Assembly (NCBI GenBank): GCA_020723345.1
Contig: DYJA01000064.1
Span: 1-38,040, forward strand
Direction: 5' to 3'
Length of the DNA: 38,040 nt
Source of the DNA: Candidatus Aquidulcis sp.
Lineage (GTDB): Bacteria; Chloroflexota; Anaerolineae; UBA4142
The notes under the pieces were generated by a model that saw nothing but the letters and a program-made list of their open reading frames with translations, did no database searches and had not been told where the DNA came from. Position numbers and translations under genes: made by a program. Positions 26,728-33,201 of this stretch are shown one piece after another; position 1 is the first letter of the stretch, and the number at the start of each line of letters is the position of its first letter.

Positions 26728-27576
26728 CTATGCTGCCCTGGGCGCGGCTAGCGCTTCGATGATTTTCGCGCAGCCACCCTCGCGCACAAAAGCGGAATGA
26801 TCGGCGACATTCTCAAACGTGCGTCCGACGATTTTGGCACATTCATATTCATAATCGGTGCTTGCCAGGAATTTCTCCAACTCGGCCGAAGGCACCGTGA
26901 GATCGAAACTCAGTTTGCCGCCATTCTTGAGCGTGTCGATTCCCTTGAACCAAATCGCGGCGCCCAATGCTCCGCACGCGCTGCCGCTCAGACCGATGCC
27001 GCCGGCAAGTCCTGCCGCCATCGCCACGTACATTTCCGAGACGCCCATCTTTTGCGCCAGCAGTGCCGTGCAACTGACCGGCTGAGTTGGCGCATCGCTG
27101 TGCTTTTCACCAAGCGCGTGGTTGATCGTATCGAAGGCAATCTGCGCGTAATCCGCCGCCAAACGAAAACAACCGATCGGTCCGCCTTTGGCGAAGAATT
27201 TGACCACCTGACCTTTCGATGGTTTCTTCCATTCCATCTCGGTGATTTCAGAACAATTGATTTCTCTCGCGCGAGTGTGGAACGTTTCGATCAGTTTTTG
27301 CGATGCGATCAATGCTTCGGCTTCGGCGCGCGCACCTGCGCCATACAGCCGATACGCTTGCGCGCCGGCGGCAAGCGCGCCGCCCCACAACATTCCGCAT
27401 TGATAGCCACTACCCATAATTCCACCCGCTAATTGCATCACGGCGCGCTCTTCGAGTTCCAATGGTTGATTGAATGAGCGGTCAACGACCGCCATAATCG
27501 TTTGCGATCAGGTTCCTTCCTTCAAAAATGTGCGGATCGTTCCCAACGCCGGGATTTTCTTTGCTTGAGTGATCAT
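26728..27576 (-). CDS. C-GCAxxG-C-C redox protein with in-frame UGA (selenoprotein)
   Basis: Read through one UGA, this is a 282-residue protein with two copies of the C-GCAxxG-C-C redox unit. Copy one: position 23 (UGA), Cys60 in QCGMLWGGA, Cys108 in INCSEIT, Cys136 in PIGCFRLA. Copy two: Cys169 in VSCTALLAQ, Cys201 in SACGALGAA, Cys246 in YECAKIV, Cys269 in GGCAKII. Spacing matches, so the UGA falls on the first Cys of copy one. The ATG at 27576 has AGGAG eight bases upstream and opens MITQAKKIPALGTIRTFL; the later ATG at 27495, the default call, has no ribosome site. A SECIS-like hairpin follows the UGA. A nonsense mutation is the alternative. Last gene of the LuxR-linked cassette; redox substrate unknown. 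Confidence 0.75.
27474..27495 (-). promoter_or_regulatory. Candidate bacterial SECIS hairpin
   Basis: In the transcript the UGA (27510-27508) is followed after 15 bases by GCGGTC-GUU-GACCGC, a 6-bp GC-rich stem with loop GUU starting in G, 21 bases after the UGA. Outer AUG/CAU can add three pairs around one bulged U. This meets the usual bacterial SECIS criteria (loop roughly 16-37 bases after the UGA, G among its first two bases). Coding constraints alone would not require such pairing. Confidence 0.7.
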
Positions 27577-27603
27577 CGTTTTATCTCCTGGTAGATTTGG
27601 ATT

Positions 27604-28527
27604 TCAAATCGTGATGACGACGTTTCCTTTTTTGTGTCCCTGCTCGACATGGCGATGCGCCGCGACGATTTGTGCCAACGGATAAACCCGGTCAATGACT
27701 GGTTTGATTTTGCCGGCGTGAGCCAATTCTTGGACGCGGAGTAGATCGGCAAGTTTTTCGCCGTTGCCCGAGTCGGTCAGAACGTTGAGGGAGACGCCGC
27801 GCGGCTTGAGCATCTTTCGGGCTAACGCCGGCGCAAGTTTGCCGACCGCATCGAAAACCACATCGTAGGTTTCGGCGCTGTGAGCGAAATCGTCCCGAGT
27901 GTAATCAATCACCTGACTCGCTCCCAGCGATTTCACCAATGCCAAATTCGCGCCACTGCACACTCCGGTCACATCCGCCTCGAAATGGCGGCTGGCAATC
28001 TGCACCGCATATGTGCCGACCGCGCCGGATGCGCCGTAGATCAGGATTTTTTGTCCGCACTGGAGGTTTGCTTTTCTAAGACAACGCAGTGCCGTCATCG
28101 CCGCGCCCGGCAGCGCGGCGGCTTGCTCGAACGTGAGATTCGCCGGTCTGATCGCGATCACCCCGTTTGCGGGCAGGCATTTGTACTCGGCATAACCGCC
28201 GAAATTGACCACGACGGTGGAAGCGAAAACCGGGTCGCCGGGTTTGAAGCGGGTCACTTTATTTCCGACGGACTCTACTTCTCCGGCGAGTTCCATTCCC
28301 AGGATGGGACGCTTGGGCTTGCGCCATCCCAAGATCAGACGCGCCATAAATTTCTGCCAGCCCGAGATGGGCGGCAGATTGAAACTTCGCATAATCGTAT
28401 CGCCGATGGTGACGGTGGTCGCGTGAACCTTGACCAACACCTCGTTGTCTTTCGGCATTGGTTTCTCGATCTCTGTGAATTCGAGCACATCGGGCGGACC
28501 ATACTTTGCATATACGACTGCTTTCAT
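27604..28527 (-). CDS. Zinc-free MDR NAD(P)H:quinone oxidoreductase-like protein
   Basis: A 307-residue medium-chain reductase. It opens MKAVVYAKYGPPDVLEFTEIEKP, has the GroES-like half with LGMELAGEVESVGNKV, and the nucleotide-binding LIYGASGAVGTYAVQIA motif. The zinc-binding Cys and His residues of alcohol dehydrogenases are absent, which places it near quinone or enal reductases using NADPH. ATG 28527 has GAGGGG upstream. It is a clear relative of the next gene upstream and probably arose by tandem duplication. Reaction partner unknown. Confidence 0.88.
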   Translation of the reverse strand: MKAVVYAKYGPPDVLEFTEIEKPMPKDNEVLVKVHATTVTIGDTIMRSFNLPPISGWQKFMARLILGWRKPKRPILGMELAGEVESVGNKVTRFKPGDPVFASTVVVNFGGYAEYKCLPANGVIAIRPANLTFEQAAALPGAAMTALRCLRKANLQCGQKILIYGASGAVGTYAVQIASRHFEADVTGVCSGANLALVKSLGASQVIDYTRDDFAHSAETYDVVFDAVGKLAPALARKMLKPRGVSLNVLTDSGNGEKLADLLRVQELAHAGKIKPVIDRVYPLAQIVAAHRHVEQGHKKGNVVITI

Positions 28528-28562
28528 ATTTTTCCCCTCGACACTTCCGTTTTTTGCTATGC

Positions 28563-29531
28563 TCAAATCGTGATGACGATTTTTCCGCGCGCGTGGCCCG
28601 TTCCAAGATAGCGGAGCGCATCCGCCGTCTCGCCAAGCGAGTAGCATCGATCAATGACCGGCCTTACCTTGCCGGCTTCGATTAGCCCTTTCAGAAAAAT
28701 CAGATCCTTCTGGTTGCTTTTGGCGACTACGCCTCCCATTTTCTTGCCCTCGCGTTCTGACATCCAAGATCCCAGGAGCATGGCTTGGAATATCTGAGTC
28801 GCTGTACCTCCAGCCATAACGTAGACGCCCTTGGAACTCAACGCGCGCTTGTATGCTGAAATTGGATGGTATCCGTTCGCGGCGAAAATCAGATCGTAGT
28901 GCTGTCCACTTTTAGTGAAATCTTCTTTGGTGTAATCAATGACCTGGTCTGCGCCAAGCGAACGCGCCTGATCCAAATTCCGCGCACTGCAAACGGCGGT
29001 GACTTGCGCGCCGAACGATTTGGCAATCTGCACGGCGAATGTTCCGACGCCGCCCGACGCGCCTTGAATCAAAACCTTTTGCCCCGGCTGAATTTGTCCT
29101 TCATCGCGCAGACCCTGCAGGGCAGTGAGAGCAGCCATTGGTACAGCCGCGGCTTCCTCAAACGATAAATTGACCGGTTTCAGCGCGAATGCAATTTCAG
29201 GGACACATACATACTCAGCAAAACTGCCATTACCCCATGCGCCTATGTCCCCGAACACCTCGTCACCGGGTTCAAACTGTTTGACGTTTTTGCCAACCGC
29301 TTCAATGCGACCCGCCATATCGGCGCCGAGTCGCGTGTTCCTGGGTTTGAGCAGCCCCGCGCTCAGGCGAATCAAGAAAATATCCGCGCTCAGGAAATGC
29401 CAGTCATAGGCATTTACAGACGCCGCATGAACTCGGACGAGCACTTCATCGTCCTTGGGCGCAGGTTTTGCTACCTCTTTGAGCTGAAGCACATCGGGTG
29501 GTCCGTATTTTTCGTAGACAATCGCTTTCAT
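28563..29531 (-). CDS. Second MDR quinone oxidoreductase-like protein
   Basis: A 322-residue paralogue of the gene 36 bases downstream: MKAIVYEKYGPPDVLQLKEVAKP at the start, LGADMAGRIEAVGKNV, then LIQGASGGVGTFAVQIAKSFGA as the NAD(P) site. It also lacks zinc ligands. The start has GGAGG and overlaps the preceding membrane-protein gene by four bases, so it is coupled to it. Retention of two diverged copies in one cassette suggests different substrates or a heteromer. Confidence 0.88.
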   Translation of the reverse strand: MKAIVYEKYGPPDVLQLKEVAKPAPKDDEVLVRVHAASVNAYDWHFLSADIFLIRLSAGLLKPRNTRLGADMAGRIEAVGKNVKQFEPGDEVFGDIGAWGNGSFAEYVCVPEIAFALKPVNLSFEEAAAVPMAALTALQGLRDEGQIQPGQKVLIQGASGGVGTFAVQIAKSFGAQVTAVCSARNLDQARSLGADQVIDYTKEDFTKSGQHYDLIFAANGYHPISAYKRALSSKGVYVMAGGTATQIFQAMLLGSWMSEREGKKMGGVVAKSNQKDLIFLKGLIEAGKVRPVIDRCYSLGETADALRYLGTGHARGKIVITI

Positions 29532-29968
29532 ACGCGTCCTCCGATTTGTTTGAAGATTGAGTAGCCCGCCAATCCGATCCCCACAACGTATAACGCGCTT
29601 TGAACGACATTCACCTGCCAGCGCGCGTGTCCGACTCCGGCGGAGGCGATAAAAGCCATCACCTCGATAAAGCCGATCGCGAACAGCAGTAACCAGAATG
29701 CCCATTTTTGACCAGCGACCAGGTTGTTGCGAATGATCGTCCACACGAACACCGAGACCACCACCGAGCACGAGTTGTACAGGATCGTCAATGTATTGAG
29801 CGATTCAATGACCCTGGGATTCAGATTGGCGATTTCAGATTTTTCAAACACCATCGCCAAGAGCGGCGAGTCGGCGTTGAAAACGACGACACTGGTCAAG
29901 ATCAAAGCGGCAAGTATAAAGTTGATGCCGCTCCAGATTGAGAGAACGATCGAACCTGCTTTTAACAT
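29528..29968 (-). CDS. Four-helix membrane protein
   Basis: A 146-residue membrane protein with four likely helices (about 8-30, 60-80, 88-108, 122-140). It begins MLKAGSIVLSIWSGINFILAALIL. AAGGAG precedes the ATG. No family recognised with certainty. It lies between a DUF4386 gene and the first MDR gene and is coupled to the latter by ATGA, so it belongs to the cassette. Confidence 0.7.
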   Translation of the reverse strand: MLKAGSIVLSIWSGINFILAALILTSVVVFNADSPLLAMVFEKSEIANLNPRVIESLNTLTILYNSCSVVVSVFVWTIIRNNLVAGQKWAFWLLLFAIGFIEVMAFIASAGVGHARWQVNVVQSALYVVGIGLAGYSIFKQIGGRV

Positions 29969-30019: not shown

Positions 30020-30706
30020 TCATGCTGGTTTTTGATCCTTTGCGCCCATAATCAAAAGCCACAAAGTAAGTCCAAATTCCGCGATGAACCCAAGCGGATA
30101 GCTGACATAGGTTATTGCGTCGAAGCCGGGGAAAAGGTAGGGCTGAAGGGCAGTCATCGACCAGAAAGCGCAATGCACCATCAACACAATGCCCAATATT
30201 CTGGGCAGGAAGCCCGACTTGAAAACCAAATAACCGAGCGGAAAAAGCCACGCGCCGAAAAATATCTGGGCGATGGTGAATCCGTTTTTGTACACGTACA
30301 GCGATAACATCGCCAGCGCTTGCAGTTGATCGAACTGGAATGCCTTCAAGTAATCCGCGCCACTCAACAGTAGCGCGCTGGCAACCAGGAACAGATCGCT
30401 CACACATTCGATCGCGACGCCGCCCAGGTTCGACAACAAGAACAGCAAAGCCAGGTTTTGATCGACCGGTTTTAGTAACCCGTACAAAGCCCACGCCGCC
30501 AACAGGAATAACACTGCCGAGATGAGATCACTCACATAACCGATCCGAAATTGCCACTCGGAAGCCAGAATGTTTTGGGCAGTCGCGGCGGCATCGCCGA
30601 ATACGATGATCTTCGAACGACCAATCACATTCGCAAAGACGTGAACCACGATGTAAACAAGATACAGCGCCCCGGCGATTCTGGCGATCTTTTTGTTTGT
30701 GTTCAT
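30020..30706 (-). CDS. DUF4386 membrane protein
   Basis: A 228-residue integral membrane protein that matches the DUF4386 pattern: an N-terminal NTNKKIARIAGALYLVYIVV helix, a conserved loop before FRIGYVSDLISAVLFLLAAWALYGLLK, and about six helices. ATG 30706 was preferred over 30721 for its GGAG site. Its function is unknown. It starts 11 bases after the stop of another DUF4386 gene. Confidence 0.82.
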   Translation of the reverse strand: MNTNKKIARIAGALYLVYIVVHVFANVIGRSKIIVFGDAAATAQNILASEWQFRIGYVSDLISAVLFLLAAWALYGLLKPVDQNLALLFLLSNLGGVAIECVSDLFLVASALLLSGADYLKAFQFDQLQALAMLSLYVYKNGFTIAQIFFGAWLFPLGYLVFKSGFLPRILGIVLMVHCAFWSMTALQPYLFPGFDAITYVSYPLGFIAEFGLTLWLLIMGAKDQKPA

Positions 30707-30717
30707 TTTCGATCTCC

Positions 30718-31443
30718 TCAATTCACATTTGCTTTAGCAGACAGGGCGGCAATCGCAGATGGATTGAATCCCTTCACGATCAGCCAGACCGCCATTACCA
30801 TTTCCTGTGGCATCAACACCATTTGCAAATACAACCCATAGCCGGTATCCAGGTGAAAGTAATGCAACAGGGCGTAAGCCATATAGGGGATCACACCGAT
30901 CAGACCCCAAACAGTCAACCAGCGGGGGATCAGCCGGGTGCGGTAGAAGGAGATGTACAGACACGTAGCCCCGATAAGAAATAAGATGGTCCCGGCCGGC
31001 CCAAGGATGTCCATGAACTGATACACGACCTTTATCATGGATTGCAAAGCAGCCGAATCAGCGCCGGTGGCGACGTATTCTTTTCCAAGAGTAAACAAGG
31101 CTACGAAACCGAGCGTCGTCGCAAAATAATAGGTGCCTTCCAACGCTCCACGGAAAAGCAACATGCCTGCCGCAAGTTCCTTGCTGTCTTTCCTGAAGAT
31201 CGGGTACAGGAAAACCGTCATCGCGGCAAGTGAAATCCCCATCAAGAGGATTAAAAACGAACCACCGACAAGCCGGGACGGATCGGCAGCGAGGATGCTC
31301 AACAAATCCGAACTAGTGAGTGGTTTGGCCTGTACGATCGAAGAAATCACTTCACCACCAACGACAGCACTTAGAATCCCAAAGACCGTCCCGAGGAAAT
31401 AGAGGATGCCTGCCATCACTGCATTCATTCTGTACGTGTTCAT
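30718..31443 (-). CDS. DUF4386 membrane protein
   Basis: A 241-residue integral membrane protein with six or seven helices, start MNTYRMNAVMAGILYFLGTVFGIL and a mid-protein FLYPIFRKDSKELAAGMLLFRGALEGTYY segment. It shares the family layout with its downstream neighbour. AAGGAG precedes the ATG. Role unknown; three members of this family in one cassette are noteworthy. Confidence 0.82.
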   Translation of the reverse strand: MNTYRMNAVMAGILYFLGTVFGILSAVVGGEVISSIVQAKPLTSSDLLSILAADPSRLVGGSFLILLMGISLAAMTVFLYPIFRKDSKELAAGMLLFRGALEGTYYFATTLGFVALFTLGKEYVATGADSAALQSMIKVVYQFMDILGPAGTILFLIGATCLYISFYRTRLIPRWLTVWGLIGVIPYMAYALLHYFHLDTGYGLYLQMVLMPQEMVMAVWLIVKGFNPSAIAALSAKANVN

Positions 31444-32535: not shown

Positions 32536-33201
32536 TCAAACTGTCTTGCCCGGGCTCCCGCGCAGCATGACGATCCCGATCCAAACGAACCAGATGATGA
32601 GACCAAACCCATAAACAGCCGTCAGGTCGGTCAAGGCCAGAACCGAGAGGATGCCTGCTACACCGGTCACCACGCCAAGGTAGTTCAATACCCTGGGAAG
32701 CTCCCTTGCCCGCAAGGCTGCCCAACTTAGCAGTAGAAACCATAAGGCGCTAACTATCGTTTCCCCGCCGCCCCCGCCCAAACCGGTTTCCACAGAGTCG
32801 AGCGTCAACCAGACCGTTGCAGCTTGAGCCGGATTTTCGCCATAGAGTTTGACGACTGTGCTCAAGTTGTTGATTGAGAGTGTGCCCATCACAATGACCA
32901 GGACGGCCCAGATTAGTCCGAAGGTGGTCACTGTCTGTACCAGCGCAGATGAGCCAGCCTTCAATCGCTCATAGAGCGCCAGTGACAGGACAATCAGACC
33001 TACGCCGAAGACCAAATAGATGATTAGGTACCATACGCGCATGAACGTCTGGTTGTCCGCAAGAAAAGCCACGATCTTGCCTGGGTCGTCGGAACCGTAA
33101 CCTTTGGGTGCCAGTATGATTATAAACATCACAAGGGCAAAGAGGTTTGTTGTTGCTCCGATCAGTGCGGCAATGCCGCCCATCTTCTGCAAGTCCTTCA
33201 T
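32536..33201 (-). CDS. DUF4386-like membrane protein
   Basis: A 221-residue membrane protein with about six helices, MGGIAALIGATTNLFALVMFI at the start and the FMRVWYLIIYLVFGVGLIVLSLALYERLK region seen in the other two family members here. It overlaps the polyferredoxin gene by four bases and so is co-translated with it. A glycine run GLGGGGGE occupies a loop. Function unknown. Confidence 0.72.
   Translation of the reverse strand: MKDLQKMGGIAALIGATTNLFALVMFIIILAPKGYGSDDPGKIVAFLADNQTFMRVWYLIIYLVFGVGLIVLSLALYERLKAGSSALVQTVTTFGLIWAVLVIVMGTLSINNLSTVVKLYGENPAQAATVWLTLDSVETGLGGGGGETIVSALWFLLLSWAALRARELPRVLNYLGVVTGVAGILSVLALTDLTAVYGFGLIIWFVWIGIVMLRGSPGKTV

Follow-up and report, generated by a model that had tools for sequence, protein, structure and literature searches.

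The PF09719 family (TIGR01909, "C-GCAxxG-C-C family (seleno)protein") already counts selenoproteins among its members. PMC13188914 counts it among the selenoprotein families, with a form 1 and a form 2, and PMC9312934 treats it as such as well, so that the original prediction was right about selenoproteins in this family. A typical member is defined by a single domain of about 120-140 residues with four conserved cysteines (or selenocysteine in place of one). For the hairpins that direct selenocysteine insertion in bacteria, PMC13188914 gives a bSECIS model with a loop of 3-9 nt, an upper stem of 4-16 bp, a G within the first two nucleotides of the loop, a spacing of 16-37 nt and an energy of at most -7.5 kcal/mol. 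A more distant point of reference is the split-Soret cytochrome c of Desulfovibrio desulfuricans (PDB 1h21), whose entry title speaks of a novel iron centre.

Here we describe a gene that very probably encodes a selenoprotein with two PF09719 domains in one chain. It lies on the minus strand of a 38,040-nt stretch from Candidatus Aquidulcis sp. (contig DYJA01000064.1), the whole of which is called the window below, and its features are collected in Table 1. The reading frame extends from the ATG at 27576 to the stop at 26728 and comprises 282 residues, with a TGA at codon 23 as its sole interruption. An ordinary list of open reading frames starts this gene at the ATG at 27495 and thereby loses the first 27 codons. 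Inspection of the sequence reveals an AGGAG upstream of the long start, whereas no Shine-Dalgarno-like sequence is present at the usual distance upstream of ATG 27495. In close relatives, purine-rich ribosome sites are likewise kept ahead of the longer start, and the homologue alignment demonstrates that the residues N-terminal to the TGA align and are conserved across phyla. The short start was rejected, since it is the long one that has both a ribosome site and a conserved N-terminus. The original prediction had carried the frame 27 codons beyond ATG 27495 to ATG 27576 with the TGA as its only break, had pointed to a strong AGGAG there and to the choice of ATG 27495 by an automatic caller, and had placed U23, C60, C108 and C136 in one copy and C169, C201, C246 and C269 in the other; sequence, translation and the standard list bear out each of these points.

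Table 1. Features of the selenoprotein locus in the window (positions count from the first letter of the window).
Feature	Position	Strand	Details
Predicted selenoprotein gene, two tandem PF09719 domains	26728..27576	(-)	282 codons, UGA counted as Sec; translation, profile match, homologue alignment
In-frame TGA, codon 23, very probably read as selenocysteine	27508..27510	(-)	First Cys position of copy one; every homologue aligned here has TGA or Cys
AGGAG ribosome-binding site	27584..27588	(-)	Ahead of ATG 27576
SECIS-like hairpin GCGGUC-GUU-GACCGC	27478..27495	(-)	6-bp stem, 27495-27490 with 27486-27481; loop GUU 27489-27487
Copy one, residues 1-154	27115..27576	(-)	Sec23 (predicted), Cys60, Cys108, Cys136; PF09719 47.5 bits
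Copy two, residues 155-282	26731..27114	(-)	Cys169, Cys201, Cys246, Cys269; PF09719 30.4 bits; Cys169 never TGA in homologues
Medium-chain NAD(P)H:quinone-reductase-like dehydrogenase	27604..28647	(-)	PF13602/PF08240; 27 nt upstream of the selenoprotein gene
Second medium-chain dehydrogenase, same family, upstream	28563..29771	(-)	

The whole protein scores 70.6 bits against the PF09719 profile (C_GCAxxG_C_C). Because each half by itself exceeds the curated cut-off of 27 bits (Table 1) and profile comparison links each half with the other and with single-domain members, the tandem duplication is real, and the internal duplication noted earlier from the sequence is upheld by the separate scores of its two halves. 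As in other members of the family, four conserved Cys (or Sec) residues are found in each domain, both in the translation and in the homologue alignment. However, the chain consists of two tandem domains instead of one, and for this reason we file the gene as a variant architecture of PF09719. It further differs from the described family in that selenocysteine is predicted in copy one only, and copy one carries CGMLWG in place of the GCAxxG motif.

To collect homologues, we scanned whole genomes of the class, together with a genome collection, for peptide patterns that avoid column 23. Of 98 homologue segments, 31 have TGA in this column, 65 have TGC or TGT and two have a gap, and no residue other than Cys or TGA occurs in any homologue aligned there. 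Of 90 distinct homologues from about ten phyla, 25 have an in-frame TGA at position 23, and positions 8 to 272 are otherwise free of in-frame TGA in the whole set. The remaining seven Cys columns, of which Cys60 and Cys246 are included in two of the search patterns, are occupied by Cys in every full-length member; one fragmented frame (L035) accounts for the few exceptions. When column 23 is left out of the alignment, the maximum-likelihood tree requires seven changes between Sec and Cys, at least four of them forced by well-supported branches. Sec predominates in a subfamily of 28 proteins from Chloroflexota, Nitrospirota, Calditrichota, Zixibacteria and others, and Cys in one of 59 proteins, largely from Bacteroidota. 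A search of viral contigs for homologues returned one weak fragment only.

The hairpin that follows the UGA lies within every limit of the bSECIS model and shows no deviation from it. It starts 15 nt after the UGA, places its 3-nt loop, which begins with GU, 21 nt after the UGA, has a stem of at least 4 bp and an energy of -9.9 kcal/mol, and an optional outer G-U pair (27496 with 27480) would lengthen the stem to 7 bp. By itself this hairpin proves little, because the window holds 1254 TGA triplets, and 2% of them have an equally good one of the bSECIS type. The earlier description of a SECIS-like, GC-rich stem of 6 bp with loop GUU, 15 bases after the UGA, instead draws its support from the comparison of Sec-type with Cys-type genes. 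For example, a 24-nt piece beginning 9 nt after codon 23 has a mean folding energy of -6.6 in TGA-type genes versus -0.9 in Cys-type genes (p = 9e-11, uncorrected for the differences in taxonomy and base composition between the two groups), and the difference disappears a few codons further downstream. Moreover, in 16 related TGA-type genes the pair 18-28 is found as CG, GC and UA, with one exception, and its covariation score exceeds those of all 500 shuffles and of all slid controls. In other lineages another hairpin sequence, GUUGAG-AGUU-CUCAAC, is used, and its distance from the UGA is almost the same. Under a strict rule of contiguous stems (energy at most -4), which misses bulged ones, a hairpin is found in 14 of 26 TGA-type genes versus 8 of 65 Cys-type genes. 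Unlike the hairpin in the window, those of several TGA-type relatives are weak or bulged, and one relative (L026) has none by the simple rule. A conservative test in which synonymous codons were shuffled was only mildly positive, which may reflect a constraint that the hairpin places on the amino acids themselves.

The genome to which the window belongs (6.34 Mb, 95.5% complete) was searched by family for the selenocysteine machinery and encodes SelB (361 bits), SelA (594 bits), SelD (357 bits) and tRNA-Sec (76 bits). The check for selA, selB, selC and selD that the original prediction had proposed thus finds the complete set. Within a hand-chosen subset of homologue loci, SelA was detected in 22 of 24 Sec-type genomes versus 17 of 33 Cys-type genomes (Fisher p 0.0014), and the two Sec-type assemblies in which it was not found are 87% and 70% complete. 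The SelD gene of this genome (L010, G000:C72:4090-5022) contains one in-frame TGA, in the context CAGUASK, and its product is probably a selenoprotein itself.

Based upon these comparisons of sequence, we assign a probability of about 0.95 to the decoding of UGA23 as selenocysteine. The selenoprotein reading put forward in the original prediction is supported by the machinery, by the composition of column 23, by the exchanges on the tree, by the hairpin comparison, by the ribosome site and conserved N-terminus of the long start and by a paralogue with Sec at the same position. The hairpin 15 nt downstream would direct SelB, carrying Sec-tRNA-Sec, to decode UGA23; Sec23 would then take the place of the first Cys in the four-Cys site of copy one, and copy two would keep a complete four-Cys site. 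Alternatively, UGA23 might truly terminate translation, or might have arisen by sequencing error or by a recent nonsense mutation, in which case a functional product of 255 residues would start at ATG 27495, exactly where the standard list places the gene. This we consider highly improbable, since the TGA and the residues preceding it are conserved in independent assemblies from several phyla, since the short product would be without a Cys that every Cys-type homologue keeps, and since only the long start is preceded by a ribosome site. The original prediction had itself named homologues with neither Cys nor UGA in this column, and an error or recent nonsense mutation at the TGA, as grounds on which it might fail; the aligned column contains only Cys or TGA, and the TGA recurs in independent assemblies. 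Sequencing error and pseudogene were both rejected because the TGA is found in independent genomes and is the only one in frame.

With UGA23 read as selenocysteine, the predicted use of selenium is confined to one half of the protein. No homologue has a TGA at Cys169, the equivalent of Sec23 in copy two, and no comparable hairpin peak stands out after Cys169 in the TGA-type genes, although their folding is somewhat stronger in this region as well. At least 20 proteins from several phyla share the tandem form in which Sec is limited to copy one, so that the predicted Sec/Cys asymmetry of the chain has been maintained across these phyla. A single-domain PF09719 paralogue in the same genome (L139, G000:C55:31269-31655) likewise has Sec at the first Cys (GFAUSQ), followed by a hairpin with a 7-bp stem and a GUG-containing loop, and its counterparts in related genomes (L126 and L144) have Sec at the same first Cys. 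Copy one thus uses the position that Sec occupies in these single-domain relatives. Across the class, many PF09719 genes with a single domain have either one in-frame TGA or a match that starts just past the first Cys, and from their sequences the use of Sec in PF09719 looks common in this class.

Within the open-access literature, the tandem form with Sec in its first half only appears to be undescribed, although form 1 or form 2, as named in PMC13188914, may itself be tandem. The guess that a one-sided two-domain form may be new is in no conflict with our findings, and it stands as far as that literature reaches.

The dehydrogenase gene immediately upstream (Table 1) is likely to share an operon with the selenoprotein gene. 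Members of the same dehydrogenase family are found no more than 5 kb from the selenoprotein gene or its homologues in 24 loci, the window included, and this gene order is not universal among homologue loci. DUF4386 proteins and MalT-like regulators also recur beside the homologues, in varying order. Three DUF4386 genes are present in the window, all on the minus strand (30020-30721, 30718-31443 and 32536-33201). In Desulfococcus biacutus, an acetone-induced PF09719 protein is, by locus number, near a Zn-dependent dehydrogenase (PMC4103992).

The predicted structure of the protein is confident (pLDDT 90) and all-helical. In fold comparison, split-Soret cytochrome c (1h21) is the best match. Its Z of 10.7, across 145 residues, far exceeds the 4.8 of the second match but is below the safe level for helical folds, which can reach middling Z by chance. 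The same structure is the top profile match of the single-domain members (E 0.03), with its CGALYG motif aligned. Sequence searches of the PDB found no convincing relative with the two-domain alignment and no match with one single-domain sequence. The putative likeness to the cytochrome lies in the predicted fold and in the CGALYG motif at the matching place; overall sequence similarity is weak, and the translation of the window protein contains no CxxCH haem motif.

How the protein might work can be approached from this structural analogy or from the chemistry of other selenoproteins. By analogy, the four Cys/Sec residues of each copy might ligate iron-sulfur centres, as split-Soret cytochrome c reportedly does, and selenium would then tune a cluster rather than serve as a free selenol. 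The lead of 1h21 in both the fold and the profile comparison, the conservation of all four Cys of each copy and the label "putative FeS cluster-binding" given to a PF09719 protein (PMC8322314) are consistent with such centres, but the weak sequence similarity, the middling Z that helical folds can attain by chance and a search of the open-access literature in which no report of a cluster in single-domain PF09719 proteins was found make us regard this arrangement as rather unlikely. Less likely again is a specific version of it, in which two iron-sulfur sites of one ancestral type would be set to different potentials by Sec acting as a cluster ligand in copy one; if true, two otherwise equivalent centres in one chain would constitute a built-in comparison of Sec with Cys. 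Alternatively, Sec23 could be a catalytic selenol, with its resolving Cys also in copy one, and react without metal in the manner of a peroxidase or a disulfide reductase, a proposal to which we give slightly less than an even chance. Bacterial selenoproteins with conserved Cys homologues are mostly thiol oxidoreductases (PMC13188914), and the Pfam name of PF09719, "putative redox-active protein", points the same way. However, the predicted all-helical fold is not thioredoxin-like, and the translation holds no UxxC or CxxU motif.

The role that we propose is that of a cytosolic electron-transfer or redox protein in which the Sec site of copy one would be reactive and copy two would relay electrons to that site or recharge it. 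Judging from the gene neighbourhood, the protein would probably work with the adjacent NAD(P)H-dependent medium-chain dehydrogenase. This functional proposal as a whole is tentative, and we would give it somewhat poorer than even odds at best.

The reading of UGA23 as selenocysteine restores the start of a gene that ordinary calling begins too late, immediately after its first redox residue. A whole series of relatives, in Chloroflexota, Nitrospirota, Zixibacteria and others, is corrected in the same way. With selenium in one half only, the tandem protein would also provide a natural internal control, in that a Sec domain and a Cys domain are combined in one chain and Cys-only homologues are available beside it, and split-Soret cytochrome c may serve as a structural guide to the PF09719 family. 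The window contains other open stretches that are separated by a TGA in the same frame (with TGA at 32538, 28653, 24779, 13286 and others), and most of these are probably ordinary adjacent genes.
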